Shown here: one piece after another, positions 5,982 to 48,375 of the stretch
Layout of the letters: each line of letters begins with the position of its first letter
Numbering within the stretch: position 1 is the stretch's first letter
Source: Branchiostoma floridae
Lineage: Eukaryota; Chordata; Leptocardii; Amphioxiformes; Branchiostomatidae
NCBI RefSeq assembly: GCF_000003815.2
Contig: NC_049993.1
Location: 9,915,050-9,979,049, forward strand
Direction: 5' to 3'
Length of the DNA: 64,000 nt
The notes under the pieces: generated by a model
Database searches by the model: none
The model's input: the letters and a program-made list of their open reading frames with translations, nothing else
Told to the model about the DNA's origin: nothing
Translations under genes and position numbers: made by a program

Positions 5982-16685
<10,704 letters not shown>

Positions 16686-18657: not shown

Positions 18658-21600
18658 CTACTTCAGTAGTCCCCATATGGCCAGTACCAGGGTCAGAAGG
18701 ACGGCAGCAGAGGGCTTGACGGTGGACCCTTCACCAACAGGACCTTCAAAACAAACATGAAATATGAATAAGTCTTTTTTCTTGATCAGTTTTACTTCAA
18801 ATTTACTTGTTGTGAGTCTGGTCTAAATCTGGTCTGCTATGTAACTGCACATCGTTGTAAAGTTTTAATGAACTGTCTGGGGACGATGTTGTAGCATGTG
18901 TACCATTCAGTATTTACTGTTGGCTTAGTTTTTCGTACTTACCAAAGGACCAGGCGTTATGACACCATATACACATCGGGGCGGGTCATTAACCCTTAAT
19001 TTTTATATGACATAATAGATAATGGAACCAACCAGTTTAAATTGTTTGACTGGACCACCAAAACTAGCCACAATAAGTGGTCACTACATATAGTACAGGT
19101 TTGGCTTTATCAAGTTGATTCAAACTATTGTTAATGTAGCAGACTTCACCCCTTTATTTCCATGACTGACATATAAGACACAAGGTACCCACCTCCACCT
19201 GCTCCACAAGCCCGGATGCAGATCCTCTGTGAGCTGATGATGGGGGTGTTAGCGTGCTGGGAAAAGGTCTCCTCTGCGTGGTTATAGCTGCCCCCTTGCG
19301 GGTAGAACATGTACAGGCAGTTGCTGTCCGTGAAGGCTCGGTCGTTGCTGTCACCTGATTCAAAACAGATTAGCGTAGATAAACATTAGTAGCAGCAATA
19401 ATGATAGAAAATACTTTTCTCGTGTTGTAGAGACAATGTACCTGTCCTTTGGTATAACTCCTAACGATACGTTTCCAAGGGCCTGAATGGACTCTAGTAG
19501 AGACACACTTCAGCCGATTTTGCACGTTCGACCGCAACTGTCCCAAAGTGCAATAAATTTGTTGTTGTAAACTATCGCAGGAAGTGTTAAACAGACACTT
19601 GAAAATGTACAAAACAGAATGCCCAGTTAAGTTATTTAAAACACAATGTTCTGCTTAGAACAGAATACCCAGTTCTTGACTTTGGAACAAAGTTCCCTTC
19701 TTCAGAACAGAATACCCATTCTTCGGAACAGAATGCCCTTCTATAGAACAGATAGAATGCCCAGTTCTGCAGAACATAACGCCTACCCGTGTTCCGTTTG
19801 CGAGTGAAGCTGAGAGTGACCATGCCGTCCGTGAACGAGCCTTGAGGATTCTCAATGTCATCTGTGGAGTCCTCGCCCGGGCGGGAATATCCAGTTGCAA
19901 ACCTGCAAGAAAAGGTCAAGTTAAACAAAATAATGTTAAACGATAGTTGTTTAAAGAAAAAAAGAACAGTTCTAGTTTTGTACATTGAATCACATTGCAG
20001 TTAGCTTGTACATCTCTATGTACCATACATTTTGCATATCTATTTCAGATAGAGCTTTTACTTCTAAAGCATTTTACGATATTTTCCTAAGATAGTGTGC
20101 AAATTTCCTTGATATAGCTGATATGTTTGCAAGTTAATTAGTGTTCTATATATAACCATTAGCCTGCACTTGCAACATTTTCATTCCAACACATACACAC
20201 AATCCAGGCAGTACGCCATAGAAACTACTGACCTATCACTGACGTACACGTCACCGTCGCCATTCACCCAGCCGACAATGGCATCAGTTTGGGCCTGGAA
20301 AAAAGGAAAACATCAGCGAATAGTTCCCTGAAGAACGGTTGACAAAGTATTTAATTAACATCTATGATGCACAATTAATTATACTAATACCGAGTATACA
20401 GAAATGAGGGAGAGTTAGATGTACTCTCCAAGCAGAGGTTAGGCTCAGGCTGTTTTTTAACGTTTTTTTATCGGGCTTTCTATTTTGTCATTTTTCTTGA
20501 AGTACGCCAGCCAATACAAGATACAATACAGAATAGAAAGCCCAATAAAAACGACTAAAAACGTTAACAAATCAACCGGAGCCTAACCTTTGCTTGGAGA
20601 GTATTACTAAGTTAAATGGGCATTAGTAGTACTTACCATGCTTCTGTCCTCGGAGAATCCGATCCCGACCCACCTGTCATTGGGCTGCCTGCTTTGGATC
20701 TGGAAGTCGACCTAAAGAAACCACAGAACGCACCAAACGGGTTGAAGAAGTTTGCAAAATTTTAAAAGGGATCATCGCTCTAACGGTACAAAAATTTCTC
20801 TCAAAGAAACATTTCGCCCTTTCACAATGTCTAAGAATCCTTAAAACACTCCTTATATCTGAATTTGGTTCTCTTAAAGATATTCAATTCCTTTATTGGA
20901 GAGGCCCAAAGCCTTTACAAAAAATACGAGACATTCGCGAAAGACACGTTGAGATACATGTAATGTAAAGACTATATTTCATATTGACTTATTGTCCACA
21001 AATCTACAAAGCATACGTTAAGCAAAAGCAATAATATTTGTGTTCCAAGTCGTTCCGTGGAAAGAAAAATGCACCTTGTCAGTACGGGAGTTGTAAGTCC
21101 AGGACACGGAGTGGTCACAGGCCAGGCCCTGGCAGTTGGCGGGAGAACTCCACCGTCCGCGGCAGTCTCCAGCGATACCGGCCTGGTTCGGGTCCTCTGT
21201 AACAACCCAAACATACGATAAACATGCTTGGTCTTTTAAGCCTGCGTCAGAATTAAATAAAACACCGGCTTAAGTTTTAGATCGGAACTCCAGCCGAATT
21301 TCAAAATCGCCCCTAGCGACGATAGTATTTTTCGTAGTTGTCCCATCACAAATTTGGCTGGGCTCGTTGTGTCCTTCCGGAAATTTATGGTCTCTTCTGC
21401 CTTTTTCGTGCACAGCTGACATTACTCGGAGGTTTCTCAATGCTTGCTGGAGCAAAAAGAGATAGTCAGCAAAGTTTTTCAGACGCTATCAACACTTACC
21501 AAACTTTAGAAAATGTACCACCACGTACCGAAGACGTTGAAAGTAGCGGCGCCCCTCTGTGCTCGGGAGGTGCCGTGGTACTTCAGTTCATCCCGGCGGT

Positions 21601-24600
21601 AAAACCTACAGAAACGGGAGTCAATAACCGTAAACGGCGATTAGAAATGTTCTCATGAATGTTTATGTGTGAAGCAGGCAAGATGATCTGTGTATTTCGT
21701 TTTAAATAACCCTTGCACCTAGCTTAGCCTTTTTGGCATGCAAACATTTTATACAAAATCGATCAAGTAATGGGTCGTTTTCATATGCTCCCGAGAAAGA
21801 ACCTGGTCTATGCACGAATGAACCAGGATGCATGATGAAATTATAAAGGGTGACAATGTGATCAAACACGTTAACAAAGACGACCATGTCCCCAAAACGA
21901 AGGGATACTTGTGGTAGATCGATGTACAATGATTTATCTATTCATTTGTTTCATAATGTGTTATGCTGTAACGTTGCCACACTTTTGGGCACAATCAGCG
22001 GTCGGTTTTGAATCCGGGACCTCTGGGGATTGGGCCAAACACCTTACCGATAGGGCCACACGATGCCACCCCGTGTGGAGCATTCTAGAAAACATTACCT
22101 ACATCAGTTGCTACTCACATGTAGTCCGTGGCGTTGCAGCTCTCCACCGCGGAGCCTGGTCTGTGAACGTACATGCCGTACTCCTGGCCACGGGCGTAGA
22201 TAAAGTGCATCGGAGCATTGTAGAAACTGTGGTCTGGGTCTTCATTGCCTAGAATGGTCAAAGCGGTAAGTTACTATTAGTCAATCCATTTATTAATTTC
22301 TATCATACTCACTACACAAAAGTTACTCATGCAACTCGATAAAGATTTATCCGAGTTTCCAAACTAATCCAGATGCTCGTGTAACGTTAACGTTATCTCA
22401 TTATCTGGGTTTTGAACATTCATTGACATTTCTTGCTTGATAACTGTATATGATACAATATATGACAATTTCTACAACAATCATAAAACAGAGATCCACT
22501 CTACAAAAGACAGTGTGGTATAAGTTGAAATCATGAACATGTAACGTTATATGTACGTGTATAATTTGGGGAAATTTTTAATGTCTATGCACCAATACTA
22601 GTAGTAGACCAATCCTGTCGAACACTATCTCGAACAGATAGAACTCCCTGTTCGGAGGTGTTCGAAATAGAACGATGATCGAACAGGGGCTGGGCTTCGG
22701 GATCGGTCTATTCTTACACAACACAGACTGGGATTTTTTTTCTATTTGCTTTTGGACAGACAAGGACAATGTGGCACTGCACTCAAGTTTTGTAACTTAT
22801 ATCAACAGTGCCACATACACGGTACCCATTTTTACACCTGGGTGAAGTGAGGAAAGTCGTGTAAAGTGCCTTTCCCAAGGGCACAACGTCGGGGGCATGG
22901 CGGGGATCGAACTCAGAACCTCTAGATTTCGAGCTGAACGCTCTACCAGTTACGCCACGCCCGACGCCACTGGGATTTTTGGGAACGCATGAGGCAATGT
23001 TACTCACTGATGAGTTTCCTGCGGAACATGATGGTTGTTTTGCCGTCCCGCTGTTCTCCGTAGGCGGCGGTGAGGCTGTCCCTGCCGTTATACCAGCGGT
23101 CCATCTGCGGTGTGGACCGGTCCCGGGTGTAGTAGTCCCCGATACGGTGGGTGTTCCCTATCGCTGTGCCGATCACCATGTCCACACAGTCCATAGCGTG
23201 GAGGCCTCCCCCTGAGGACAGCACAAGTCAAATATTTTAAAACAAATCGAAAGCATGTCCAGATGAGAAGACATGAAATCGGACGTACCACTGGAATCAC
23301 GGAAATGACTAGGAGGCAAACAAACGACACACAAAATGTATTTTCCTGCGGTTGGGAATATTCCCCATATTAGCTGAAGGTGTACAAAAACTGCGCTGAC
23401 CTCCTTGCTCTGGCTCGCCCTCGGGCTCGGGTTCACCCGAAGGTTCAGGCTCGCCCTCGGGTTCGCCCGAGGGTTCAGGTTCGCCCGAGGGTTCGGGTTC
23501 GCCTTCGGGCTCAGGCTCCGGTCGACCTGCGATAGTAGAAAAACAACACTTCATAGCACTTCATACCTCAATTGCTGATAAAACATTAAGGCCTACGGCA
23601 CGTTTCCAAACTGGGGCCCGGCCAGGCAGCTTTGGGGAACGAAAAGTATGATATAAGAGACACCAAACTACACAAAATGTAAAGAGAATAGATTCGTGGG
23701 CATTATCTGTGTAGATGTTTAGTTATACATGTCTATTTTCGTTTCCACAATTAGCCCAGCCGGGCCCCGGTTTGAAAATATGATGTTAGCCTACAAGGCT
23801 CTTGCCTCCCAGACTCTATGTGGGCCCTTCTCGCAGAAGAGTCTGACCAATGACATGGCTGCTGGAAGCGTGATTTACAATCAGCTAGATTTATGAAGCA
23901 TATGGTGGCATTTCTTTACCAACACAACAGATACTTTAATTCACTCAGATAGAGACGTGGGTTCCAATGGATAGATGTGAAGTTTGAAATGATTCTAGAG
24001 TCTGATCTTTTAGGACCTTAGTTTCTGTAGGCCTTACTTCCGTTTGCCCGGCACTGCCATGGGATGAAGGCTTCTGGCTCGGCCTCGGGTTCGGCCTCGG
24101 GTTCAGCCGAGGGTTCCGCCCGGGGAAAGCGCAGATGGTGGACAGCCCGGCGGCCTCGGTTCTGTAGGCATCAAACGTGTGTCAGTGTCACTGACGAAAG
24201 GCAGTAGATTCTACCTGAAACGTCTGACCGTTTCCAAAATCATACCTAGTTGTTTGAGTAATTACTACTTGACGTATCAAACGTGTTATCTATCGTTTTG
24301 TCATAAAAATTATTCACAATGAAAAGTTCTTAAGAAGTCACACTCGTGCACCATCTCTCTGCAACGGATCGACATTCTAGAAACTTAGCCTTCTAGTTTG
24401 TGAGAGGAGTGAAACAGGCTGCCTTCATCGGGTCACGCCAGCGTTAACCTTTTTTCAGCCGAGACGGGGGACGGTACTAACTTCTGGCGAATTTTGACCC
24501 AATGCTTTAGTCTCGTGCGAAAAAATCTAAACGTTTCCACAGCACCCAGGGCTGTACAACACTGATAGCTGAAGAAGACTGACACAGATTCGGTAGAAAA

Positions 24601-27600
24601 ATCCGGTGAGTGAGACAACAATCTAGTCGTTCAATACTAGATGGATGGACAGTTAGCCTGTGTTTACACAAGCTCTCGCCGGCTGGGCTTAATGACCCCC
24701 TCCCCCCGGCGGCAATCGTAGGGCCGGCCGCTAGGGGCGCGATTTTTGTCAGGCTAGATGGACAGTTACCTGAGGTGCCTGTGTCGGCTCTGCCTCTGGT
24801 TCTGGGGTAGCCTCTGCCTCTGCCTCCGGCTCTGCCTGCGGGTCCGAGCTGAAGTAGGTCACGGGGAAGTTACGGCAGGAGGCCGTCAAACCTGGAATAA
24901 CAAACGAGAAGTTAAGATTTCCTCTCGGATTGGGACTTAAAGCCGGCGGCCTCGTATACCGCCAGTCGTAAGCCTCATACGTTAAACCATTGCATGTAAA
25001 AGAACCCATGGCCATCACAGGTATCGAGAGGAGCAGGGAGTGACCCGATGTGTTTGGCGACAACGCGAGCCACAGTATAATTGCACTCATACCNNNNNNN
25101 NNNNNNNNNNNNNNNNNNNNNNNNNNNNNNNNNNNNNNNNNNNNNNNNNNNNNNNNNNNNNNNNNNNNNNNNNNNNNNNNNNNNNNNNNNNNNNNNNNNN
25201 NNNNNNNNNNNNNNNNNNNNNNNNNNNNNNNNNNNNNNNNNNNNNNNNNNNNNNNNNNNNNNNNNNNNNNNNNNNNNNNNNNNNNNNNNNNNNNCAACAG
25301 TTCTGTAGAAGGTTTTTTAGATAGCTTTTGGTAAGAAGTCTGAAACTCCTACCTTGTGGTCTCCATCCCAGACCAACCCATGTCGTTCCCTCTACCTGCA
25401 GGGCCACTTCGATCTCGTTCCCAGTCTGGAAGAGATTTTTTAGAATGGCGTCAACGGAATGAAGCATATATCTAAAACAAACTGTTACAAATGACCTATA
25501 TTTAATGGTACAAACTACAAAGTGGTGTAAACCACATACTTTTTGTACAATTTGGATACCTATTAAGGCTGCCCGACAGCTTTTGGGATCGCTAAGTAGG
25601 ATATAAAGACAAACAAAACACACAGAACGTAAAATGATTAGTCGTCAGCATAATTCGTATATATTCCTTGATAAACACTTTAATTTTTCGTTTTTCTGCA
25701 AACATCCCGGCCGGGCCCCGGTTTGAAAATTGGACCTTAGCCTAAAGCTGCCAAGTCTCTTCATCTTTAATTCTCACACAAGTAGGACGAAGAACTTGAC
25801 TAGATTGGTAGCCGTCATCTGTTTGGATGCCGTGCAGAGGATACTGTAACGTTACCTATTTGTAATTTGCATGTTCATAAGAGAAGAACGAGAGAATCTG
25901 TAAATATTGTACAGGAAAAGCAGTGGAAGATGAAATGCACTTTATTTGTCATTTTCCACACTACAGTGCCGAAAGAGACAAACTATTCAAACTAGTCAAA
26001 AAAATTTTCCCCAGCATTGCACATCGTACCAAACTACAAAAAAAACTGTTTTCCTGTTAGCACCACCCAATGCATATGTCTCCCAAAATGTCGGGAATTT
26101 CATCCTCCACTGTATACGGAAAAGAAATCAAACCCAATAGTTTTCATTTTAGATTAGAAGTATCACTAATTGATGATCCCTATTTCACTTAATGTCCACT
26201 TTGTTATTGTATCATTATCATCATTGTACTTCCATACATGTATTTTTGCAATTAGCCTTCGGGCATGAGTTTGCAATAAAAGATTATTATAATCTCGAGC
26301 TTGTCTTAAAGGCATACTACGCAGTTTTTTGCGCTCAAATTTGAAATATTCTAGAATTAAGAAATATCAGATTTACTACTACTTTTTGTCACTTTTTGAC
26401 ACTTTTGTGTCATTATTTCACGTTTGCAACGTAAAGGATTAGCCTACAAACATTCCGCTCTAGGCACCCTGTAACCTTGTGTCCCCCCAAGTTAGACCCA
26501 CCGGGTCTTGCTTGCCACTGGTAGGTCCCCCGGGGTGGGGTAATCAGTTAGCACATGCATGGCAGACTGCAGATAAAGAACACAATGGAGACCTTCTTTG
26601 GAAACACCTATCATTCTAAAATAGCATATAATCATGAACTTATTAGTCTATTTCGTAGGATATCAACAAGCTAAGGTCATATTCCCTTCAAAACTGCAAG
26701 AAACCTTGTACAGAAAGCTAGTCTACTGTACTCAGAGGAACTGTCAACTGGCCCCCCACTGGGAAGCCAGGCTGATAAGCAAGAAACAACAACACACAGA
26801 GGCAGTAACCAGCCTGTGCCCATCTGTTTCTTGGAAGATCACAATTTTTATACATCATGCTAATGTGGTGCATTGATGTCGCAGCATCTCTCAATGAATA
26901 TTGGTATGCAATGCTATAGGGTTGATTGAACTAACAATGTAAAGAAAAAGTAGGAAAAGCTACTTTTTGTTTTGTTCAAAAATCCCGTAGTATGCCTTTA
27001 AGAATCCGTTATATGATACATACGTCCATCGTCAGGATCTTCCAGTACATGTCCATCCCGTTCGTGAGTTCCCGGCGGTAGTAGCCGCGGAAGTTGGAGG
27101 GGATCGCAGTCAGCGGGGACTCTGAAAACAAGGAGCACAAAAAATAGTCAATCATAGTGAATATATTAATAACGAATCACGGTATCATCAATGAAAATGA
27201 TACCATTATGAGAAACAATAAACACGGCAATAATGAAAAAGATGGTAGCAAGAGCGAGGGCCGTGCGCATGCAGGTTGGTTAAGGTAAAATTGGAGGTTT
27301 GCAAGTACATTATTTTTAAAAAGATTTTCTGTATCTAAGCTGTACTTCTACATGCACTGAGTACATAAGATATAGGTACATGTATGCGGATTTAACTGTA
27401 CTGATGGTTACCTTCTGTGAATTGTTAGATAAAGATGAATGGATAACGTTTTTACACAGTTACTTGTTCCATGTACAGTCTCTAAAACTCTATATCTTAG
27501 CTGCACCGGGTAGGGATCTAGTATGCAGAATGGAGTATTTCGAAGTTAGAATGTACCTTTCGAGCAGTCGCGTCCAAAGTAGCCACTGTGGCAGTAGCAC

Positions 27601-30600
27601 TGCTTCTTGGGGTACGAGGTGGAGTCCACATTCACGCACACGCCGTTCCCGCTGCAGTCTGAGGCGTTCAGGCAGTCATCTGATGCACAATAGGCAATAC
27701 ATACAAGAAAGGTGAAGATCATGTGAACAGTCATCCTCCTACGCACGGTCCCCAACGGCTAGCTGACTCAGCCTATGGGGCCCTGCTATCTCATGGCCTA
27801 CCCGCAGTTACTTACAGTTCCTCGTCGCCCTGCTTATAAATATTAATGAGCTTACCCTTATATGGGCAGTCAGCCGTTGGGGATCGGGCGTAGAACTTAG
27901 AAGGATGGTGCTATGTAAGACGTAACATGATTGGCTGATAGCTTCCCAGCGGCCTTTGGAGACAGCTTTCGACAACAAAAAGCCCAAGAAAAGCCTATTC
28001 TCCGATTGGTTGACAGCTGGTTTGTGGCGACAATCATAATAACCGCTGGTAGGCCATGAGATAGCAGGGCCCCATAGGCTAATACCGTTGGGGACCGGGC
28101 GTTAGGAGGATGGTGAACAGTCGGACATGGCTAGGGGCAGGGGGTTGTTAGTACGCTGTGTTTTTTTTGTAAGGTATTGAAGAGGGAGGCCCACCCTTTT
28201 GCCTTCCAGTCCATCTACGCCACTCAATACAAGGAAACGTGTATAGTTGAGTTGTCTCAAGATGTTTTAAGGATAGGGCTAAAACATGGACATGTAGGAA
28301 AATCTACCTAATGGGCCATCAGAAGTTTTGAAAAGTTAACTGGAACAACCACGGACTAAATGAATGGACCAAGGACGGTTCCTTGTGGAATGCTACTTTG
28401 TGGAAACAAGGAAAATATGATAGCAGATATGTTGAGACCGCAATTCCTGTGATGCGATAAACCGTGCCACATACTGACCTCTGTACTGACATCTGTCTCC
28501 GCTGTATAGCCTACGGCAGGTGCTGTTCCCACACTGTCCGCCAGGGCACGCTGTGGCAATACAAACATATCACACATTGTATGTTAGAACGCAGTAATAT
28601 CAACAGTAGCGCCGTGTAAGGTGCGTGTATCGATATCAACATCAGGTCTTTGTACGTACACTTGATAATCTTTTTGCATTGCCACAAATGCAACTAGTAC
28701 TATAAAAAAATTCATCTACCATTAACAGCATGCCTGGAAAATGTGCGTCACCTCGAAATAGCTACAGCTGCTCAAAGTGATCAACTCTCACGTCCATAGG
28801 AAAGTTTGGGCTAGTCTCTAACATGTACAACTGTCTCAAATGACAAATTATGATATTTATTTTTAATAAAGTGAAGTAATCTAGTGGAGTCTCATTTTGA
28901 GAAAAGTGACGTACTTGGGCTGCCTGTTGGGACGATAGTGACGTCAGCGCAGCTCCAGAAGATGTAGTCGTTCCCGTTTGTGAGGCGCCACTCTCCCGCC
29001 TGGCGGAGCAGCCGGATAGTGCAGCGGTCGCAGGTGAAGTCAGACGGCAGGGTCAGCTCGTACCTCTGCACGCTGTGCGAAGTACAAGAACAAGACCAAG
29101 AATGATTTTACTGTTTTCCTGTCTTGATCTTAATTCTTTAACCATTTATCTCCACAGCGCAAGTCTGAAATAGGTTAAGTATCTTTCAATGGCTACGAAC
29201 ACAAGCAGTAAACCCGACAAGAAATTTAGACTTATAACGTTACATATGCATTTCATATCACAGTCAAACCGTGTATCAGAGTCCTATGTTTCACATTCTT
29301 TTCCATTCATTGCATTGTATACAGCTTCCAGGAAAGAACTTGTACTTGCAATAAAATTATCATCAGTATCAATCACTAATGACAATGTCATGTACTTTCA
29401 ATCTACTCATGTCATGTCCAGACTACATTTCTTCGTATTTAGGCCAATACATTTGTAATGCTCTAAAAAAGAGAGAATCTATTGTACAGTAACAGACCAA
29501 CTTGTCAAACTTGCATATTACACCATGTCAATACGCCATTTATGTTCACATTTCTATACTATATTTGTATGTAGTTATAGAACTTAGACGAGTATCATAA
29601 TTGTATTAATTGACTTGTTACTGTTGCCTTACAATTGTACCATGTACAAATGTTGTGCAATAAAGTTCATTCATATGTATATATATGTATTATCAGTCCT
29701 TACGTGGCGTCGTGCGCGGCGGCCCAGCCGTCCCCAGGGGTCAGCACCCGCAGGACGTCCGTGGTCGCGTTAAAGTCTGGTCCGGTGTTGTTCAAGATCT
29801 CCAGACGGATCCCTCCCTAACAAAACACAGATGATCGTTAACTATACTACAACAAGCACGCTGGCACAAAGGATATCATCACTTTATCATCACTTTCGTT
29901 AAAGTCTGGCCCCGTGTTGTTCAAGATCTCCAGACGGATCCCTCCCTAACAAAATAGAGAAACAACGTTAACTACAAGAAGCACCCAGTCATGTCAACAA
30001 ATGATATCGTCACTTTATCATCATTTTAATCTAAGTCTGCTACAGTGTTGTTCAGGATCTCCAGCTAGGCGGATACTTCCCTGATGAACAACGTTAACTA
30101 CAGCAAGCACCCAGTCATTAAACAAATGATATCATCACTTCATCGTCACTTTCTTTAAAGTATGGTGCCTGGACATTGAGAGCTGTTCTTAGAAGTGTCA
30201 TATATGGAATGGAGACAGTTGGGAGGCGTGGATCAGCTATGTGTGAAAGGGGCTTACCACTGCAAGAAGCATATAGAAAGTAGCCTATCTCTGCCAGCAA
30301 CATTAGTAATGTCCAAGAAGTATACGCACTGGTCCAGCTTGCCTTCCTCATAATTTTTTCTAGATATATTGTACGTTTTCCAATTTGTCATAGTAGGAAT
30401 GATGTGCCATTAACCAAACTACAGTGCTGGAAATTACCATCTGCAATCAATAGTAAGCAACTTCTTGGTCCTATGAATATGCCCATATGTATAATAGCGC
30501 ATATGTACACCTAGTACCTGTTGACTCCGTTATGTTTCTGCTGTTAACAGCGCAACCTGTCGTACTGCACTGTCATTGCAGCTTGTTCTATTTTTGATGA

Positions 30601-33600
30601 CACAACAAACCCCTTCGTTGCTTTTGGCTGTGGTCTATGAACCATTTAGACCCCAAACAGACAAGCGAGTTGATGCTGCATTGCAAACATTTTTCCATCC
30701 ATGGGAGGGCGAGAGGGGTTGGCTGTGTGATTTATTACGTCGATGAAGGTTTATAGACATCCAGGTAGTAAGATACGCCAAATAGCAATTACTCAAGCAG
30801 CTGGATATGGTTTAGGAAGCCCGGTCAGACATTTCAGATAACGTTCGTTATCTTTCGTAAGTGACACTGATGAAAGTGTCATTTATTGTATTTTGTAACT
30901 ATCGATCGGGGAACGGTCATGGGTCACAGAACAATGCAAATACAAGTAGATGATGCATTCTTTATCTATAGAATACTTGTAGATCGCTTACAGAGAAAAC
31001 ATTTGTTTGAAATCAACAAAGCTCCAACGTGTCGGCAAATTATCAACATAAATCCAATCAAGTTTAGTTTAGTTTTGTACTCTTAAAGCATAGGTTAGGC
31101 TCCGGTTATTTGGGGACGTTTTTCTATGCGTTTTTATCGGGCTCTCTAGTTTGTTCGTGTGTTTTCTTGATGTCTCGCGACCTGTAAAAACGTTAAAAAA
31201 AACAGCCGGAGCCTAACCTCTGCTCGGAGAGTACTGTTGGTCTTCAATGTTTTTAACAACCTTCCCCTCCTCCCAGAAATGTTATATCTAGACATAATTG
31301 CTCGGTGCCAGGTACGGACGGCACGGTTGTCATGACGTCACTATGTATTGAAAAGCTGAAGGGCATTCTTTGCACGCAAGTCACTCAACAACTGCAACAC
31401 CTGCTAATGTATGCATAGACACACGGCACTGAATCACTCAGGACTTATGGTGGCATCTCACTGCTTCAATGACTTTCTGAACCCTTTTACTAATGAATAT
31501 ACTTGCTTTGCATGCTGAACATTGCGATGCCTTCTTAAAATAAATATTATGCTTCAAAGATAATCTAACGTATTTGGAAAACCACAATAAATTGATCTTG
31601 TGAGAGGTATTTCCAAACGGTTGAGCATATAGCTAAAGGTGGTATGTCATTGCACTTGGGGCACCGGTGCGGCACTGCGGGGTTCGAAAGATTCCTCAAC
31701 GAATTTCAGAAATGAAGAACAATTTCCTTACGTTGTGTGTACAGTATTTTGTTGTCTTCTAAGTCATACATTTACGTATTACGCAACATCTAAATTATCT
31801 AAAAAGATCGGCGAAAATGACACAACAGTGCCGCAGTGAACGAACCCTGCAGTGCCGCATCGGTGCCCCAANNNNNNNNNNNNNNNNNNNNNNNNNNNNN
31901 NNNNNNNNNNNNNNNNNNNNNNNNNNNNNNNNNNNNNNNNNNNNNNNNNNNNNNNNNNNNNNNNNNNNNNNAACCATGATATTCATTTTAAGAAGGCATC
32001 ACGTTTTCAGAATGCAAAGCTGGTAGTATGTTGAGTACTTAAAGGTACTAGGTTTCAGAAAGTCATTGAAGCGAAAACGCGGGACAACATTTCACTGTCC
32101 GAAACGTGACTTTGACAGAAACGTCGAGTCACTCGAGTGACTTTAATAGACATCACAGTTTTCATGCTGTGACCTCAGCAGTCCTAGTGAGTGGTTGGTT
32201 TGTCTTATCGAAAAAAAATAAACGATTTGAATGAAATTAAAAGACGGACTGTAACTCAAGATAGCAGTAAATCAAACTTAAAAATGTGGTTAACAGACAC
32301 GATAATTACTTAATCGCCAGGTTTGTTATTGACAGTCTGTGAATGCCACCGGGCAATCGTATGGCTCAAAGGTCACTGGTCTCGGCCTTGCACAATCCGT
32401 GTGATACGCCGGAGGGCAGTTATGTCGGCTGCACAATACAGGTCTACAGTTACTAAAAAACAAAATGATCAAGGTATCATGAAGGGGAAGGCCCGTACCC
32501 TTGCTGAGGTCATAGGGGCACTGTGCTATTAAATCATGTTGTCAATAGGCAACATGTATGAACTACGCCCCCCCCCCCCTTCATCTTGACTATTTTTACC
32601 TAGCCTAGACAAAGAATGGTCTTTAAATTGCATGGCGCTGAAGCCAAAACATGCATAGGGTATGTTGGTAGTGTATTTGCAAACAGGCTGGCAAGTTGAT
32701 GTTCCGGACATGCACGCATTAGCATGTATGGGAGGGGGCATTCAATAGGTGAAAAGGTTCGCTATTGAAAACTTCTGGCTATCTATTCTCTTTACATATA
32801 CCTTTCATTTCACATATCCACGCATGCGCAATAAACATGCGTTCTTCCTCCTTTGCACAATATCCAAAGTAACACGCAGCTACTTATTAAATCAAATTAG
32901 TGTTTCAGTTTTAAAATATCACCAGTTTCCTGAGAACAGAAAAGATTCATTTTCATTTATTTGCTCATCCGGGAAACGCATTTGTTGCTTTAGCTGTTGG
33001 GCGACCTCAACAGAAAAATTACTTCACACATAAAGATAACGGAACGTATGGCAGACATATAAACTAGCACCATATGATAAACAAAAGTTGGCGTAAAAAA
33101 TGAAATTTTCCAAAGAGTGTACGACAAAAGCCAGTTAATTACACAACGGATAACGCACACTTCTGTTAACTGCATGCAATCCCAAAATCCCAAGCCGGTG
33201 CGGTCCAGCTGGATAACTTCGCATTATTGCACTACCCGGATAATTGCATGAAATATGAACTACGCTAACAAATAGGCTGTGCAATTGAACGGTACTGTAG
33301 TACCAAATGACGTCAGTGCTCACCACGTGCGCGTACGCCATGTGCCAGGTGACGTTGAACGTGGAGCCGGCCAGGAAGGTCGTCATCGGGCCCATTCCTG
33401 TGGACAAAAACATATTAGATCATCTTAAGATACAAGAATCTGAGAGTTCTACAAAGAGCCTAGCCTCCTTAGCAGATTTCTGAAGCGGAGGCGGTTATTA
33501 CTCGGGGGAGCGCCGGTTCACAATTTCAAAACCTTTTCCCACCACCACCACAACCGACAAAAATCAACGCCACTGATCCAGAAATCTAGTTTGTGAGTAG

Positions 33601-34476
33601 GTCTTGATGAGATCTTGTAGTGATTCGATTTTGGGCCCCCTAGTGGCTTGATACAGTTTCGATACCTTGAATTTGTGAATGGTGGATAGTTTATATATAT
33701 ATACATGAAGAAAGGTGGATATTAGTAGTTTATACACAATAATCATAAGTCGGAAGACATTCCACTTAGGGTATTCAAGATTTCAATCTTGTTCTCGGGA
33801 ACTTGACCTTACCTCATGCCAAGACAAGTTGCCAGGTTAATGCAAACATTTTATTTATAGTGTTACTTTAGTATTTAATTTAGTATTATTATGTACAGGA
33901 CGTCCAAGCAAACTGAATCAGCTAAAAGGCAAAATATTTCTATTCTTTCATACGTTAAGTGTCACATATATTCAAGACTAAAAAAACAACGGAATCCACA
34001 ATATAACGACATTGCCAATCTTAAAAGTATAGTGCAGGTTCATTGGGGCTAGCGCTGCTGGTTGAAAGCAGCACCTCTTACTGACTTCTGACAAATCCTT
34101 CCGGAATTCTCAAATTGGACACCAGACATACACATATACACATGGAACAAGTATATTTCATAGAGTAGTGACACAGTACTCTTCTCAGTTGGATATATAA
34201 GTCAGTTAGCCGTACCAGCTACTTCAAGGTCCTATTGAGCTCAAGAAGGAGGTTAATGAACTACAGACGACGTTTTCACAAAGAGAGAAAAATGCCAATC
34301 AATTATTTATAAGAAGATCTTTCTCCGTATCGTTTCATTATGGGCACATGTGAGGCTTAAAGAGAAATGCACGCAACTTTGTCGATATTACAGCACTCTC
34401 CCCTATTGCGTCAGACTCCTCAATGAAAACTTGTAGTGTTTTTTAAAGGAATGTCAGTGTAGCGTATTTAATATGT

Positions 34477-34512
<36 letters not shown>

Positions 34513-34577
34513 AAATGATCATTGTACAAAATTGCAATTCAGCCGTTAGGCTGCAACAGTTTTTAATCCAATAAACC

Positions 34578-34638
<61 letters not shown>

Positions 34639-37600
34639 TAGGGTGAAAACTGTCTGTGATCCAGCGCAACCTGGCCCTAACTTTTTGCATCGTTATACAT
34701 AAAATATTGATTACCAAATACCTTAGATACCATACGCGTGAATCAGTCTCGGTCTACATATCAATCGCTTGCCAATACATAAAAGACTGCTTTGGGAATT
34801 AAAAAAGATAGTGACACCCATGTTTATCCCCATGGAGGTTTTCGTATTTTCATATATAGTTTAGTTCGTAGAGTATTAAGATTTATTCTGTATCCTCTTT
34901 TTACAGTTTATATTTATTTGACCATACAGAAGTCACCGTGCTTTTTTGTCGTGCCAATAAAGCTTGCAGTATGAATGCTGTATGAACAGTATATCGTCTT
35001 AAGAAGTAACTGCGACCCTATCTTCTAAATGAATTTAGCTACATCTTGCAATGGAAAGAATTTCACATTTTGTGAATAATGCCGAATTATTTATGATGCT
35101 AATACACTAAAACGCTTTGTATTTTGTTTTTGTTTTGCTCCTGTATTAGTTAAAATGCGTATCCATTCTAAAAATCTCTCTAACACGTGTACAACGTACT
35201 CCCTGTATTTTCCCAAAAATATTCTCCTTAAGCCCCGTTTACAAATCAAGAATTTAGCTCGGCCGAGTTGTCAGCGAGCTCTAAATTACGAGGAGGCATG
35301 AACCTGATGCCTACGAAGAAATGGAAGAGTTTCTTCGTCGAAGGCTCCCTAAAGCCCCCTTTACAAATCAAGAATTTCGCTCGGCCGAGTTGTCAGCGAG
35401 CTGTGGATTACGAGGAGGCATGAACCTGATGCCGACGAAGAAATGGAAGAGTTTCTTCGTCGAAGGCTCCCTAACCTGATTACTAGTAATAACGGATACA
35501 CGCTCATCACACGGCTCCATTGTTTCGGTACCACCTGTACAAGACAGTTATGTCTGTCACGTCCTGTGCTCCTCCCTCTGACGTGAAATTGAAAGGTTCA
35601 GTCACGATCGCCTTTGTTGAATTTCACTCGGCCGTTGAGGCCAATGTTAAGATAACAACAATAGTGCAAAGTCATAAGTCTCCGGCTATACGGATGGTTA
35701 ATTTGAGGCGCGGTCGGTCATGGGCATTCCAGATGAAGTACGTAGCTTTTTGTTTCTTTTATTAACTGATTCAATGAAAAAAAAATCACTTGTATGAAAA
35801 TAAAAACTGGGCCGTGTTTATCCCTCAAACTGATTCAAGAAAAACGAAGATGTTTTTGTCTTTAATTTCGCACGACTTTTGAGGTCAATGTTAAGATAAC
35901 ATCTATATAACTGCAAAGTCATGGACAATACGGATAGTGATTTTACTGGCACAGAAAACTAGCGTCTACCAGGCTCCGCGGATCGGTGGTCTAATTGTAG
36001 GAAGGTGAGGAAACTGATCCTCTGGCCGGCCGACTCCCCTTGCGTAGATCTACAATAGACTCTATTTGTCCAATTTGTACAATTAGACCACCGATCCGTG
36101 GGGCCTGGCAGAGGCTAACAGAAAACCTAAAGCTAACACCATAAGAAACTAGAGTTCGGGGACCTCATACCTCCATGAAATATTTATTGCTTTTTTGTGG
36201 ATGGTATGTATGTTTATAGTCGGTTGTATTTGAGAGTAATGGTTATATAATATAAATGTTATGGGAAAGTAGTGGTGTATTTATTTAATGACACAGAGGA
36301 TGTCCATCTGATTAGTAATTATCAAAATGTGACACTTAATTGTGTAATGTGCGTTTAAGAGGTCGACGGCATATGGTAGCGTGGTGTTCCTTAAGCTTGA
36401 TGTTTGGCATTTAAACTGTCTAAGGTTGTCAGCATTATTGAGGTTCGACTATGTGCCTCAGAGCTGTGTGGTGGGAGGAAGTTGGGAAACTCAGAAAGAA
36501 GAAGGGATGTGGCCAACTTTAGTCAGATGGTGATTTGTTTTTCCACCAATATGTCATAACATCAGCTGTTCACACGGTACAAAAACGAGATGCACACTTT
36601 CCTCTGACAGCCCTACACCAACTGTAAGATGAATACTTGGCGCCAACCCCGTCTGCTAAAAAACAAGTACCATTGGCTACGAAAGAGACAACTAACAACA
36701 ATGAAAAGTTTGTTTCTTCTTCTTTTTTTGCCATACATTGTACCGTGTACGATCGTTGCGCAATAAAGTTCTTCATAACGACATGACCCGCTTGCATTGC
36801 GACGTTTTGCTAGTCACCGTAGCGGTGTGCTCAGCCTGGCACCGTTAATGTAATCGTAAGACCAACAACACGTTTTCATAGTAGTACTTCCCCGAATTTT
36901 CACCGTTACTTCCTGCACGCACCCCTCTCAATCAGTCAGTAAACTCATTGGAGATGTGAAGTACAATAAAGATAATAGAGTATAAATCTGTCAGTCATCT
37001 CTTGTGTTTCTTCCCCTATCAGTATTCGAATTGTTCTTAATGATCCTTAAACGACTCTTAATTCCTCCCAGAATTGTTAGCTAACGTAGCGACAATTTCC
37101 GTTTTTTTTCGGTGACATATGTGCCAGTCACTGCCGTGCCCGGACCAGCCTGTGCGTTTTTGACATATTGAACGGTCAACAATACAGTTTAATTTATTGT
37201 GGTACTTCCCCGAATTTTCACTGCTACTTTCGAGTGCAGGCACCTCTCTCAATCGTATAATTCAATTCTATAAAATAGTAGAATATAAATTATGCCAGTC
37301 ATCTCCCGTGGTTCTCCCTCAAACTGTTCTGAAACGAACCTTATTTCCTTTTAGTGCTGTTACTGTAGCTAACGTAACGACAATACTCGTTTTTCTGTGA
37401 CATATGTGCCAGTCACTTCCGTGCTGGGTCTAGCCTGGTACCGTTGTACGTTTTGTCATCTTTTAAACGACCAACAAAACGCGTTCATTGTGGTACTTCC
37501 CCGAATTTTCACCGCTACTTCCTGCACGCCCCCTGTCAAGGGTCGGGGCTACTGTTTTCTGTTTACTGTGTCAACAATGGCAATATAAATGGTCCGGTTA

Positions 37601-40600
37601 ATTATAAGGACTAGCCTGGATGCCAGACCCCAGCCCGATCTCTATCTATAACGTGTGGGGATATTTTTGAGATCGGTCTTGGGTCTGGTGTCCAGGCTAG
37701 TAAATGACGTTAGGTTAGGTCAAGGACATTAAATAATGTTCTTGTCCGACTCCGCGTTAAACGCGTGGTTCTGAGGCTTTTTACACGTGTTCCTAGTGGT
37801 CTGCATTTTAGAGTAAGATTAAAAGAAACGCAGATCACTTGAAGTACGTTTAAAAGGCCTCAAAATACACAAGCAAATACTGAGCGGGATCCTACCTCTG
37901 CTTGGAGATTAGATCCAATTCAGTATGCCTACCCGTGCGTTATAAGTGTTCGGCGCTCTGGCATTACCAAGTGCTTGAGAACCTTGTTGCCTTTGGCTAA
38001 TGGTTCTTTGATAATTTTGCTCCCGACATCGCGGACCGGTACGGTACCGCCCGTGCTAACAGTTGATTAACCGCTTAGTGACGTGTTCCTCAGCTTGTGA
38101 TTAGAGTATTTTAGAAAACAAACCTGAAGAGTCACCCAGTAGGAAAAATGCATCTGTATTCAATGTAGAAGGTTGTGACGGGTTTTCAATTATATGTATG
38201 TATGACTGTGGCCTAATTATAAAGTAAAGACTAAGAATAATGTGACATTCAAACAATACCGTCAGTGTTCTTAGATCCAGCTCTGATATGTGAATAGATA
38301 TGGACAAAGTCTGTTAAGAACCCGATCGGCAACTAAAGACAAAATGGCGTCGCGCAGACGTCATGGCCAAATCATGTAAAAGTCACTGCGCCATTTCTCC
38401 TTATTTTCAATGAATAAAATGTTTTGATTGCTGTCATTTGCATAATCGTAGACTCTTGTCTGCATCCCTTCTTAAAGGGGTCCTTAGGTAGTGTGTACTC
38501 GACAACCTTTAATGGGCCTTAACTGCCATTAATCGGGTGCCCTCAGGCACTGCACCTCCATGTGACAGCGGTAAACAGTCCGAGGCACCCCGCCCATTTT
38601 TTTGTATCATTTACGCTTCTTTGCCGCTGTGTTCTACAAGCTTAAGTTTATTAGCCGTGAGAGGCATAATTATGAACGATAGAAATGTCATTAGTATTGA
38701 TGATTGTGCCTTTTTGCCACTTCTGGTCATCATTTTTGAAAGCGGCATTTTACCCCGAAAGAAACTTTAAAGTCATTTTGTGAGTGGACATGCGACCAAC
38801 TGGGCCAATTATGACGCATGTGTATAATACATGTAAAATAGAAAGCCAAAGATTCATACGCAGTGTACAAAATACTTTTCTGAGCCTGGTTGCACAGTGT
38901 GCAACCTGGGTCAAAACTAGGTTGCACAACTGAATTTCAAGTTGCACCGCCTAGAATTCACTATTAAAAATGTCCATCTGCCAAGAAATCTGCAATTATT
39001 GACATGTTTGGCTGCTATGAAACGGAACTGCCTCGTTCCATTTATTTCTTCCAAGTAAATTGACAACAAAATCGAGTTCTGAGGCTCAAAATCAAAGTTG
39101 CGCCCTGTGCAACCTGAGTTTAGAAGTAAGTTGCGCCAAGCAAAAAGTGGTTGCAATGTGCAAGTGTGCAAGTGGGTATTTTGCACGCTGATACATGAAG
39201 ACTATGTTTAATATTCACCTTACACCTTTAGAACCAACCGCGCCTCAAAAGTCAACCATCCGTTCAAGTGACGTCCGAGAGAGATCATTGCTGTTTACCT
39301 GACGTTGGCCCCAATGGTTGGGTGAAACTTAAGAAGAAAGTCGTGACTGGGTCTTATTCATCTTTTTTGAGGGGGCGTCGGAGGTATAGGGGAAACGACT
39401 AAGCACAGTAATGAAACAAAGTGATTAAATCCTTATTATAAGAGAGTCATGGCCATCCGTGCAACCAGCAAGCCAGGATGATGATGATGATGATGATAAG
39501 ACTTTAAAACTAATTTCAAACATGAAGAATATTGTGTTCTAATTCTGTCGTTACTCTACATCTAACGTCTTAGACGTGAGGTGAAAGTTAAAAAAAAATA
39601 ACTACTGTAATAGGATAACGTATTGGAAAAGATCGGAACAAAACAACGATACACAAAAGAAAGTCCAATTTGAAACCTGAGACACTCTACATCTATTAAA
39701 CACGATGTTTCTAGACGAATCACAGGATTAGAGACATCGTTGATCTGACAATACAGCGACTGTAGTTTCTCTACGACTCAGGGAACATGGACAGGAGTTC
39801 GTCTTGAATCGTACATCGATTACAAGGTTTTAAATAGAACATAGTAGGTGCTCTATTATCAAGAATCATCAGTTCCTCGGGGCAAATTACTTCCGAGACT
39901 GCGGGCATAAAGAATGATATTTTACGTGTCGTACGTATACGCTGTAGCCATTGTATCAAATCTATATAAATGGCATCTATCATTAATAAGCTAGCGTCTC
40001 CTATGGTATCCTAATAATGTTGTGGTGCATCAGCAGCTGAATACTGACAATGACAACCTGACATATAGAATGTGTAGAAAGATTAGGTTTTAAAGTCTCG
40101 GATTTTCAGCCTGTACCCACCCCAGTTGTCGAAAGCTGTTGTTATACGGTTCTGTGGTTTTCACCCACAAAACAGGACCACCACCACCACACAGACACAC
40201 CGCTCCCGGACCACTACAGAGGTACATGGAGCGGTAGACCATGTCTGTCAGCTTGAAAGGGTTTTGTGGCTGCCAAAATGGAGACTTTTTTGGTCCGTGT
40301 TTTTAAGTTGTCGCCAAGGGCTATTGTAGTGTACGTAGTCCGGGGTAGCTTAATACCGTACGGTTGTGAAACGTGAAACCAGGCAGCGCTACAAGTCGGC
40401 ACGCCAGGCGACTCAAGACCACCGATCCTCCGCGCTCCGTGTGTATTGTGGACACTTTTTTTTTTAGATTTTCCGGGTAGTTTACTGGCTACATTTACGT
40501 CCTTGAACCCGTGCTCATAAACAAGGGAGAAGGAAGCTACACGCAACTGTAGGTAGGTCAAGGATTGTCAACAGCAAAACAAAAATGTTTCTCAAGAAAA

Positions 40601-40848
40601 TACCCGTCTCCTTTCTCTGTGGATTTTGTAAACTGCGATGTAATGTATAACGATAGGTAATAAAATAGATATGATCATGATGAATCAGTAAAGAACGTAC
40701 CAGGTCCGACGCCGCAGGGCGCGCGGGTTCGAGTGTTGTCCAAGAAGTCGAAGGCGAAGCGGCGAGCCGGCGGGAACGTCAGGCGAATGTGGGCGGACGT
40801 CAGTGCGACCAGGCCCGCCAACACGAACAGACCCGTTCGGTAACCCAT
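18658..40848 (-). CDS. GPI-anchor-like His-brace/EGF/double-DOMON protein
   Basis: Twenty exons join in frame (754 residues): 40848-40701, 33397-33324, 29816-29704, 29072-28915, 28550-28479, 27679-27557, 27121-27024, 25425-25353, 24891-24770, 24161-24038, 23526-23401, 23211-23008, 22248-22119, 21605-21529, 21196-21075, 20711-20637, 20294-20233, 19902-19787, 19354-19193, 18743-18658. Signal peptide 1-19; the mature protein would start with His20 ([10 protein letters not shown]). Module 20-164 has PCG (44-46), WHMAYAH (67-73), CDRC (126-129) and FWSCADV (150-156), reminiscent of LPMO/BIM1-like copper proteins. Cys-rich EGF-like modules are at 165-188 and 190-229. DOMON-1 (about 230-290 and 411-545) is split by a Glu/Pro/Ala-rich linker (300-410); it has WVGLGW and [15 protein letters not shown]-2 (548-715) has [10 protein letters not shown] and IVGWVNGDG. 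The hydrophobic C-terminus ([16 protein letters not shown]) suggests GPI anchoring. Function is inferred; the exon 10 acceptor is least certain. Confidence 0.88.
20421..20604. mobile_element. Hairpin MITE, CTCTCCAAGCAGAGG family, copy 1
   Basis: The terminal inverted repeat CTCTCCAAGCAGAGGTTAGG at the left pairs with CCTAACCTTTGCTTGGAGAG at the right. A TA flanks each end, and GAAAGCCC/GGGCTTTC lies inside. It sits in a DOMON-gene intron. Confidence 0.85.
21974..22080 (-). mobile_element. tRNA-like SINE fragment
   Basis: On the minus strand an A-box-like TGGCCCTATCGGTAAGGTG precedes a B-box-like GGTCCCGGATTCAAAAC at tRNA-like spacing. There is no intact cloverleaf, so it is not called a tRNA gene. 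Confidence 0.5.
22749..22972 (-). mobile_element. tRNA-derived SINE (younger copy)
   Basis: Minus-strand head: TGGCGTAACTGGTAGAGCG (A box) followed by GGTTCTGAGTTCGATCCCC (B box), i.e. a tRNA-derived pol III promoter. The body has ACCCAGGTGTAAAAATGGGT and ends in the block complementary to GGACAGACAAGGACAATGTG. A T-rich run at the left is its A-tail. It shares the whole body with 9103-9345. Confidence 0.85.
23401..24161 (-). other. Exons for the acidic Glu/Pro-rich linker of the DOMON protein
   Basis: Exons 24161-24038 and 23526-23401 encode degenerate repeats such as [13 protein letters not shown] and [17 protein letters not shown], with strong GGC/TCG imperfect tandem repeats at the DNA level. 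Together with exon 9 this makes a ~110-residue low-complexity insert between strands of DOMON-1. Repeat slippage probably makes its length variable between alleles. Confidence 0.75.
23587..23800. mobile_element. MITE with GGGGCCCGGC inverted ends, copy 1
   Basis: TTTCCAAACTGGGGCCCGGC near 23605 is inverted as GCCGGGCCCCGGTTTGAAAA near 23760, with GGCCT/GGCTA-like tips outside. A related copy is at 25560-25742. Confidence 0.7.
25094..25294. other. Assembly gap (201 N)
   Basis: Run of N in the intron between DOMON-gene exons 8 and 9. An undetected small exon could be hidden, but exon 8 and exon 9 already join in frame. Confidence 0.99.
25560..25742. mobile_element. MITE with GGGGCCCGGC inverted ends, copy 2
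   Basis: The right end GGCCGGGCCCCGGTTTGAAA and the internal ACAAAACACACAGAACGTAAAA match the copy at 23587. The left end (GGCTGCCCGACAGCTTTTGG) is diverged. A similar but more decayed copy may lie at 16373-16560. Confidence 0.6.
26310..26997. mobile_element. Non-autonomous piggyBac-like element
   Basis: TTAA flanks both ends (26306-26309 and 26998-27001), the target site of piggyBac transposases. The termini are AGGCATACTACG at the left and CGTAGTATGCCT at the right, a perfect 12-bp inverted repeat, extended imperfectly by T-rich sequence. 688 bp, no transposase. It lies in a DOMON-gene intron. Confidence 0.85.
27731..28114. mobile_element. Long-TIR MITE, possibly nested
   Basis: The left block 27731-27812 (CGGTCCCCAACGG, GCCTATGGGGCCCTGCTATC) is repeated inverted at 28030-28112. 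GAACAGTC occurs just outside both ends, an 8-bp direct repeat of hAT type, although the left tip lacks 2-3 bases. A third copy of the terminal block (GCCGTTGGGGATCGGGCGTAG) at 27867-27915 lies inside, suggesting insertion of one copy into another. Confidence 0.75.
29460..29690 (+). mobile_element. Candidate LINE 3' tail
   Basis: TTGTACCATGTACAAATGTTGTGCAATAAAGTTC resembles the phrase TTGTACCGTGTACGATCG followed by CAATAAAGTTCTTCAT near 36738-36775. A shared transcript-like tail at two unrelated loci suggests a retroelement 3' end. No coding part is visible. Confidence 0.4.
29895..30083 (-). pseudogene. Two truncated copies of the 5' part of DOMON-gene exon 3
   Basis: 29895-29949 repeats the first ~55 bases of exon 3 with its acceptor (minus strand GGAGGGATCCGTCTGGAGAT). 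30032-30083 is a more diverged copy. Both lie upstream of the true exon (29816-29704) on the gene strand, with shared intron phrases (AACGTTAACTAC, AAGCACCCAGTCAT). They lack the rest of the exon and a donor. Confidence 0.82.
31088..31233. mobile_element. Hairpin MITE, CTCTCCAAGCAGAGG family, copy 2
   Basis: Left end TAGGTTAGGCTCCGG and right end CCGGAGCCTAACCTCTGCTC are inverted, with the shared core GTTTTTATCGGGCT. The left tip is eroded. Confidence 0.8.
31462..32085. mobile_element. Large inverted-repeat (foldback) element containing an assembly gap
   Basis: The left arm 31462-31686 (CTTCAATGACTTTCTGAA, GATGCCTTCTTAAAAT, GGGGCACCGGTGCGGCACTG) is mirrored by 31841-32085 (CAGTGCCGCATCGGTGCCCC, ATTTTAAGAAGGCATCACG, TTCAGAAAGTCATTGAAG). 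The N run 31872-31971 replaces the middle of the right arm. The spacer of about 155 bases has no coding content. Confidence 0.8.
31872..31971. other. Assembly gap (100 N) inside an inverted repeat
   Basis: Run of N within the right arm of the foldback element at 31462-32085. Confidence 0.99.
34480..34634. repeat. (TA)n and (TC)n microsatellites
   Basis: TATATA run at about 34480-34509 and an uninterrupted TC run at about 34580-34634, both in the first intron of the DOMON gene. Confidence 0.95.
35229..35473. repeat. Two-copy direct tandem repeat, ~120 bp unit
   Basis: A unit beginning AAGCCCC and containing GCTCGGCCGAGTTGTCAGCG and GAAATGGAAGAGTTTCTTCG occurs twice back to back with a few substitutions. 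No coding assignment. Confidence 0.9.
35962..36117. mobile_element. Short MITE with ~35-bp inverted ends
   Basis: GCGGATCGGTGGTCTAATTG near 35977 is inverted as CAATTAGACCACCGATCCGT near 36080, with CCAGGC/GCCTGG further out. No transposase. Confidence 0.8.
36835..37565. repeat. Three diverged tandem copies of a ~300-bp unit
   Basis: GTACTTCCCCGAATTTTCAC occurs near 36886, 37202 and 37493. GTGACATATGTGCCAGTCAC occurs near 37112 and 37397. Aligned surrounding text repeats (CAGCCTGGCACCG / CCAGCCTGTGCG / TAGCCTGGTACCG). Non-coding, DOMON-gene intron 1. Confidence 0.8.
37610..37702. mobile_element. Miniature hairpin (TAGCCTGG family), copy 1
   Basis: ACTAGCCTGGATGCCAGACC at the left and GGTCTGGTGTCCAGGCTAGT at the right form a hairpin of about 35 bp per arm. 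Confidence 0.85.
38862..39192. mobile_element. MITE with CAGTGTACAAAATAC ends, copy 1
   Basis: The left end CAGTGTACAAAATACTTTT and right end GGTATTTTGCACGCTG are imperfect inverted repeats. Subterminal GTTGCACAGTGTGCAACC is itself palindromic. The copy at 42636-42942 shares both halves. Confidence 0.8.
39478..39499. repeat. (GAT)n trinucleotide repeat
   Basis: About seven GAT units in the first intron of the DOMON gene. Confidence 0.9.
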
Positions 40849-45350: not shown

Positions 45351-45541
45351 GACGACCTGAAAAGTTTAAGGAAAATTTTTGGAAAAATTGCATATGTATC
45401 ATTTTGTAAATATAAAATACAACATGGTGTATTCATTATCACCCGTGTTACAAGCTCAGCCATTGGGCGATCCAACCCGCGGGAGGGCTTGGACCAAGGG
45501 TGATATGCAATACACCGTATTGTATTTTATTAATGTTGTAC

Positions 45542-47708: not shown

Positions 47709-48375
47709 GTAAGCACGAGTTGGAAGTATGTAACGCGTTTGCACCAGTATGTTTAATATAAATGGTTATAGAGAGGCATGGATGTCAATTTGTCGGGCAT
47801 TTTCTATTGCACAACTGGGGGAGGGGGGCACATTATACTTCTTTTCAGATACTCAGGCGTAGCTGAGCGGTTAAAAACGGCCCAGAGACAAGTTGCACGA
47901 GGATATTCCTTATTACCGTACCCCCCCAAAATAAGGACTTGATCTGTGTGCTAAAATAGTGCATTAGATGTCAATATTATACAGACTGCCTTATTCAGAA
48001 TATGATATTGCTTAGGTTGCCTTTAAACGTTACCCCTGGATAAAATGTAACCGTGGGTATATTGTAGTATAGGTTATATAGCCTGGCCTATAGTTCTTGC
48101 CCCCTCATCAGCTAATTACACACTTTGAATTATAAAATCAAATGTAATTCCAGTTGAATGAAAATAATATGATGCATTGTCCTAGATTTTTTGGACAATA
48201 AATATCTAAATGCTGTTCCAATTAAAAAAAGGGGGGGGGGGGGCATATAAACGTCATACTAATTTAAAAGCTTGTTGGTAAGCACTTTACTTTGTGTATG
48301 GTTAGACCACATAAAATTCTTTACAAAATGAATGATAGATATGCAATTTTATTGTCCTTTCCTTTTCAGGCCATC

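Follow-up and report, generated by a model that had tools for sequence, protein, structure and literature searches.

A putatively tethered amphioxus protein combining a candidate histidine-brace copper domain with a putative haem-binding DOMON on one chain

Several described systems bear on the protein reported here. In the AA15 LPMO TdAA15A, copper is held by a brace of His1 and His91, with Ala89 near the copper and Tyr184 in the axial position (PMC5823890). In LaX325 and Bim1 an Asp borne by a Gly-rich loop serves as a copper ligand (PMC7529816); X325 proteins are typically GPI-anchored (PMC8615602), and Bim1 has the Cu(I) importer Ctr1 as its partner (PMC7924993). One review records X325/Bim1 from fungi only and AA15 from bilaterians (PMC10952591), and work on Didemnum describes a tunicate-wide LPMO orthologue group (PMC8704543). 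Electrons for LPMOs can come from fungal cellobiose dehydrogenase (CDH), an established donor: a rate of 67.2 per second is given for the reduction of LPMO9F by a CDH cytochrome (PMC4507011); the haem ligands of PcCDH are Met65 and His163, spaced by 98. Among DOMON domains, those that bind haem keep a Met and a His, both of which are absent from sugar-binding DOMONs and from dopamine beta-hydroxylase, and the insect CYBDOM CG8399 has the motif SxDxxMGxD with Met286 and His379 as ligands (PMC10691727). The closest architecture is an early branch of a 2019 LPMO tree, made up of sequences that join DOMON and EGF modules to LPMO_10 (PMC6950343). Its domain set equals that of our protein, which probably belongs to the same family, and the passage on this branch is silent on proteins, organisms, ligands and mechanism. 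Beyond the branch, no publication was recognised as describing our protein, as judged on titles and the starts of abstracts. New here are the ligand set conserved between two copies of the gene, a split DOMON, the paralogue itself and a GH9 neighbour.

The locus was compared with each of these systems. Our protein has in common with TdAA15A a predicted N-terminal His, a second His in the matching strand and a CxxC (PMC5823890), but the similarity is very weak (E 0.03-0.05), Tyr71 stands opposite Ala89, the chain is multidomain and its LPMO_10 score is borderline. Like X325/Bim1/Cbi1 (PF20238), it would begin with His and end in a GPI-like tail, and pieces of both copies pass the Pfam model (PMC7529816, PMC7924993); it differs in giving no clear Asp signal, in that H73 is not favoured by that model, in its EGF and DOMON modules and in being an animal protein. 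The second of its DOMON domains (DOMON2) resembles the CDH cytochrome 4qi3 in the position of a Met and in the stretch RFATGY..P (PMC4507011), whereas a flavin dehydrogenase domain is lacking, the CDH cytochrome model PF16010 is narrowly missed and the paralogue has no FATGY stretch. DOMON2 also shares SxDxxM and a Met-His spacing of 93 with the animal CYBDOM proteins (CG8399/FRRS1; PMC10691727), but our protein has a GPI-like tail in place of their cytochrome b561 membrane part, and the next conserved Asp lies at another spacing.

We favour the reading, with a probability of roughly 0.56, that this is a tethered histidine-brace copper protein with its own b-type haem donor on the same chain. 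Signal cleavage would expose His20; this residue and His73, perhaps also the nearby His68, would hold copper as a histidine brace in the LPMO/BIM1-like domain, which EGF modules would connect to two DOMONs in a secreted, membrane-tethered protein. DOMON2, and less certainly DOMON1, would bind b-type haem through a Met and a His, as in the fungal CDH cytochrome, and an extracellular reductant, for instance ascorbate, would supply the haem with electrons. The reduced haem would then turn Cu(II) into Cu(I) on the same chain, for use in oxygen activation on a polysaccharide or for transfer to an importer. The gene, its architecture, the family matches and the conservation of candidate ligands between copies are seen directly; the cleavage site, the fold, the binding of copper and haem, the route of the electrons and the reaction at its end, be it oxygenation or copper delivery, we infer from the sequence. 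The earlier note had proposed a membrane-tethered copper oxidase or carrier with its own electron-transfer modules; at the level of sequence this holds for the LPMO/BIM1-like domain, the brace-aligned His and one Met/His DOMON. If the reading is right, a histidine-brace site and haem donor on one chain would make the electron supply of an animal copper protein testable with a single construct. Since the scores of the copper domain place it between LPMOs and Bim1-type carriers, its chemistry would be informative on the relation of the two functions.

The gene lies in a window of 64,000 nucleotides of Branchiostoma floridae DNA, the whole stretch that was analysed (C15:9915050-9979049), to which all positions below refer unless a chromosome is named. 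It occupies 40848-18658 on the minus strand, where 20 exons form one open frame of 754 amino acids ending in TAG. Each of the 19 introns begins with GT and ends with AG, and the motifs quoted with the 20-exon model of the earlier note are present, which bears that model out. Exon 11 has two donors, both in-frame: 23401, the better consensus, is preferred and used in the final 754-aa model, and the weaker 23392 would add three residues. The order of parts is a signal peptide (1-19), a copper-type domain (20-159), EGF-like modules, DOMON1, DOMON2 and a GPI-like tail; the signal peptide and the tail were assigned by eye. Exon 1 (40701..40848) encodes the signal peptide and the start of the copper domain, including the His20 codon (40789..40791), exon 2 (33324..33397) the strand with WHMAYAH (67-73), exon 3 (29704..29816) a further part of the copper domain, and exon 4 (28915..29072) its end, with CDRC (C126-x2-C129) and FWSCADV (150-156); the first of the located motifs, PCG, lies at 44-46. 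Intron 2 also holds two partial duplicates of exon 3 on the same strand, one of 58 bp at 96.6% identity (29897-29954) and one of 32 bp at 87.5% (30033-30064). Exons 5 and 6 (27557..28550, minus strand) encode two EGF-like modules. These stay below the Pfam cut-offs in the window protein (EGF_2 17.4 against 22.1 bits, EGF_Teneurin 19.1 against 24.3), and a 295-aa piece of the paralogue passes both models (EGF_Teneurin 29.8, EGF_2 24.7). The two proposed DOMON domains are confirmed by Pfam, which finds two DOMON stretches in the full protein with 156.7 bits against a cut-off of 32.7. DOMON1 (21529..27121, minus strand) is encoded by exons 7-8 and 12-14 and is split by exons 9-11 (23401..24891), which encode GLTASC and then a Pro/Glu-rich insert. 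The insert lies at the same position in both copies, between GWRPxGLTxxC and LHAMDC. It contains a basic RGRR segment (24038-24161, minus strand), matched by RSIRR in the paralogue, and we take both to resemble a proprotein convertase site. DOMON2 spans exons 15-19 (19193..21196), and exon 20 (18658..18743) encodes the hydrophobic, GPI-like tail and the stop; by eye, a similar tail is present in the paralogue.

The paralogue emerged from a search of the whole genome (513-Mb assembly, 431 contigs) with residues 20-287, which returned the gene itself and one further locus, on C4 at about 9.896-9.900 Mb. We modelled its first eight exons, and the second half of DOMON1, DOMON2 and the tail were taken as open frames. 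As far as it is assembled, its domain order is that of the window gene, and each of the eight junctions compared has the same intron phase in both. No counterpart of window exon 13 turned up; the assembly has a run of N there. This second copy bears on whether the LPMO-like and DOMON parts could be two separate genes wrongly joined. The first intron is long (7.3 kb), assembly gaps lie inside introns 2 and 8, and the model is known from genomic DNA alone, all of which would suit such an artefact. However, every exon join is in-frame, and the paralogue keeps both the order of the parts and the intron phases; we regard a false fusion as very improbable and rejected it. A third locus, C4:10238759-10240230 on the minus strand, is a DOMON2-like gene up to 64% identical by exon to window DOMON2, with no copper domain in the 20 kb examined, which include 353 N. 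Searches of the whole genome, exon by exon, with the PF20238 and PF03067 profiles gave no matches; matches arose in none and in one of 14 controls, respectively, and the searches missed the window's own gene too, and are insensitive because they proceed exon by exon. A TdAA15A fragment likewise matched nothing in the genome, a result that says nothing about the absence of AA15. Among contigs of other origin, none of 105 pattern matches in viral sequence and none of 103 in bacterial and archaeal sequence was confirmed as a relative.

We compared the copper domains of the window protein and the paralogue, which are 49% identical. After its signal peptide the paralogue continues with a 26-residue stretch and, further on, FYSCSDVTV. 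The two signal peptides resemble each other in their hydrophobic cores, and the residues before the candidate first His are T-x-A in the window protein (H20) and A-x-G in the paralogue (H21). Immediately before this His none of five residues is identical between the copies, and from the His onward 16 of 19 are. This onset of conservation supports the His as the first mature residue, and His20 is probably the mature N-terminus; in the paralogue another His would come first if cleavage took place two residues upstream. Mature His1, His49 and His54 (precursor 20, 68 and 73) are invariant, as are W48, A51 and Y52 of the exon 2 strand, and H109 is not. Both candidates for the second copper histidine that the earlier note had named, His68 (codon 33342..33344) and His73 (codon 33327..33329), are thus kept in the paralogue.

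The family of the copper domain was assessed with Pfam, at cut-offs of 27 bits for PF20238 (BIM1-like) and 23 bits for LPMO_10, and the scores varied with the piece scanned. PF20238 was passed by three of four window pieces (full protein 31.0, residues 1-164 29.7, residues 1-230 34.4; mature domain 26.5) and by two of five paralogue pieces (1-158 28.4, 1-200 31.3; mature 26.1, with 1-245 and 1-295 not listed). LPMO_10 was passed by the mature window domain only (23.3); residues 1-164 and 1-230 reached 22.8 and 20.7, the full protein was not listed, and neither was any of the five paralogue pieces. Shuffling the mature window domain abolished both matches in five of five cases. The domain therefore resembles both families better than shuffled sequence does; it is a borderline member of each, and the assignment of residues 20-159 as an LPMO/BIM1-like domain is borderline too. 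The earlier proposal of a His-first module of this kind stands as a matter of sequence matches and a probable N-terminal His, with PF20238 reached by pieces of both copies and PF03067 (LPMO_10) by one piece of one. An X325 or LPMO label taken from a Pfam match alone was rejected, as both matches are borderline and the two models disagree on the second His.

To place the candidate ligands, we compared the sequence of the domain with PDB chains. Its best PDB sequence match was TdAA15A (5msz), a weak one with E 0.051 for the single sequence and 0.032 for a two-row profile, and unrelated chains scored nearby (E 0.098 and 0.16 with the single sequence, 0.081 with the profile). In this weak alignment H73 stands opposite residue 91 and Y71 opposite residue 89, and the CxxC matches. 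We then scored 20 single Ala variants in the Pfam models, 17 in the window domain and three in the paralogue. In LPMO_10 the largest losses came from H73A (-7.1 bits), C153A (-5.4), F150A (-5.2), D155A (-4.7) and W67A (-4.4), followed by W151A (-2.1) and H68A (-1.2). Y71A gained 2.8 bits, the other nine window variants stayed within 0.8, and H20 falls outside the LPMO_10 match. In PF20238 the losses were C153A -8.4 (with the match also shortened), W151A -4.4, H20A -3.2, D155A -2.0, F150A -1.9, H68A -1.7 and D88A -1.6 bits, and H73A gained 0.7; the paralogue variants H21A, H71A and H76A changed the score by -3.1, -1.3 and +0.3 bits. Thus H73 and a Phe at a conserved position stand out in the LPMO_10 model, and H20 and, weakly, H68 in the BIM1-like model. 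The F150 column may be the axial Tyr/Phe position. As to which of the two histidines completes the brace, LPMO_10 favours His73 (-7.1 against -1.2) and the BIM1-like model leans to His68 (-1.7 against +0.7); together with the alignment to TdAA15A, this suggests His73 as the second brace His. Tyr71 counts against the reading that we prefer, because TdAA15A has Ala89 at this place and LPMO_10 prefers Ala.

One sharper form of that reading is copper acquisition like that of fungal Bim1/Cbi1, in which the DOMON haem would reduce bound Cu(II) and Cu(I) would pass to a CTR-type importer. Pieces of both copies pass PF20238 where LPMO_10 takes one piece of one, the tail recalls the GPI tethering of X325, and Bim1's partner Ctr1 imports Cu(I). 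However, the Asp ligand of X325/Bim1 (PMC7529816) left no clear trace: none of eight Asp-to-Ala changes cost more than 2.0 bits in PF20238, the largest loss being that of the Asp of CADV, and the family is listed for fungi only in the review cited above. On this evidence we consider copper acquisition unlikely.

We next turn to the DOMON domains. The full protein scored 26.5 bits in the CDH cytochrome model PF16010, just short of the cut-off of 27. Searched against the PDB, DOMON2 found the CDH cytochrome 4qi3 with a weak E of 0.06. Met613 (codon 20639-20637) stands opposite chain residue 74 of 4qi3, which we take to be the haem ligand, and RFATGY-x-x-P is common to both. Three of the seven PDB matches listed were CDH (E 0.06, 0.12 and 1.3); the others were two nucleases, close behind at E 0.12 and 0.14, dopamine beta-hydroxylase and a piece of factor H. 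With a DOMON2 profile the only match was dopamine beta-hydroxylase, a protein whose DOMON is haem-free (PMC10691727), which speaks against our reading. Met613 and His706 (codon 19256-19254) are invariant in all three DOMON2 copies, and His698 is found in two of them. Their spacing of 93 equals that between Met286 and His379 of CG8399, and the SEDRSM of DOMON2 fits SxDxxM. DOMON2 therefore has the Met/His pair of haem-binding DOMONs, as far as sequence can tell. In DOMON1, Met417 (23194-23192) is invariant in both copies and His507 (22165-22163) follows 90 residues further on, but it does not fall in the alignment column of His706, and the corresponding exon of the paralogue did not turn up; with its insert removed, DOMON1 matched only unrelated proteins in the PDB. 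A firm haem assignment for DOMON1 was rejected, and we keep Met417 and His507 as possible ligands. Of the Met/His ligands sought in each DOMON, the pair in DOMON2 was thus found and that in DOMON1 is a possibility.

The same residues bear on whether the protein might be an adhesive or matrix component, its domains binding sugar or protein and its redox residues being relics. Extracellular proteins do contain EGF and DOMON modules, sugar is a ligand of some DOMONs (PMC10691727), and every redox claim made for our protein is drawn from sequence. By contrast, roughly every second position differs between the copies, and yet they agree at the candidate copper and haem ligands; H109 and H698 are not conserved in this way, and we hold this alternative to be rather doubtful.

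The gene for this protein has a neighbour that may be relevant to its chemistry. Exons of a CBM2-GH9 endoglucanase lie at about 5982-16350 on the plus strand (GH9 200.3 bits against 27.7, CBM2 35.7 against 24). This is the next recognised gene downstream, convergent and about 2.3 kb from the end of the copper/DOMON gene. The genome search, whose counts are lower bounds, found GH9 at two places, in the window and on C13 near 16.55 Mb, and so found none beside the C4 paralogue. In animals, gene order says little about function, and the pairing of the two genes, noticed after the fact, is suggestive. It enters into the other sharper form of our preferred reading, in which the protein would be an LPMO-type oxygenase acting on cellulose, chitin or an algal wall, in the gut or on the body surface, with electrons from its own DOMONs. 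The LPMO_10-type columns at H73, F150, W67, C153 and D155, the AA15 LPMO as best PDB match and the cellulase gene next door, one of two GH9 loci that the genome search turned up, all fit such an enzyme. However, LPMO_10 was passed by one piece alone (23.3 against 23), Tyr71 replaces Ala, no GH9 place was found near the C4 paralogue (these counts being lower bounds), and the neighbour was spotted in hindsight; an oxygenase is possible, and we propose it tentatively. That the locus amounts to a chordate one-chain oxidative polysaccharide system, an LPMO and CDH-type cytochromes tethered to the cell surface beside the CBM2-GH9 cellulase that they would assist, we consider a distinctly unlikely conjecture; on that view, functions divided in fungi between LPMO and CDH genes would be united in one membrane protein of an animal.

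The remainder of the window holds further features. Within the GH9 gene, near-identical tandem copies of an exon, sharing a 16-residue stretch, lie at about 12270-12829 on the plus strand; three were counted by reading, and four profile matches fell on the same stretch. Between GH9 exons, a long open frame at 14519-15637 on the minus strand looks by eye like a LINE reverse transcriptase. Exons of a WD40 gene of the CDC20/Fizzy family are found at about 1705-2735 on the plus strand. On the other side of the copper/DOMON gene, two similar intronless BTB-BACK-Kelch frames lie in inverted orientation at 43668-45365 (minus strand) and 48268-50052 (plus strand), the first of which was assigned with Pfam.
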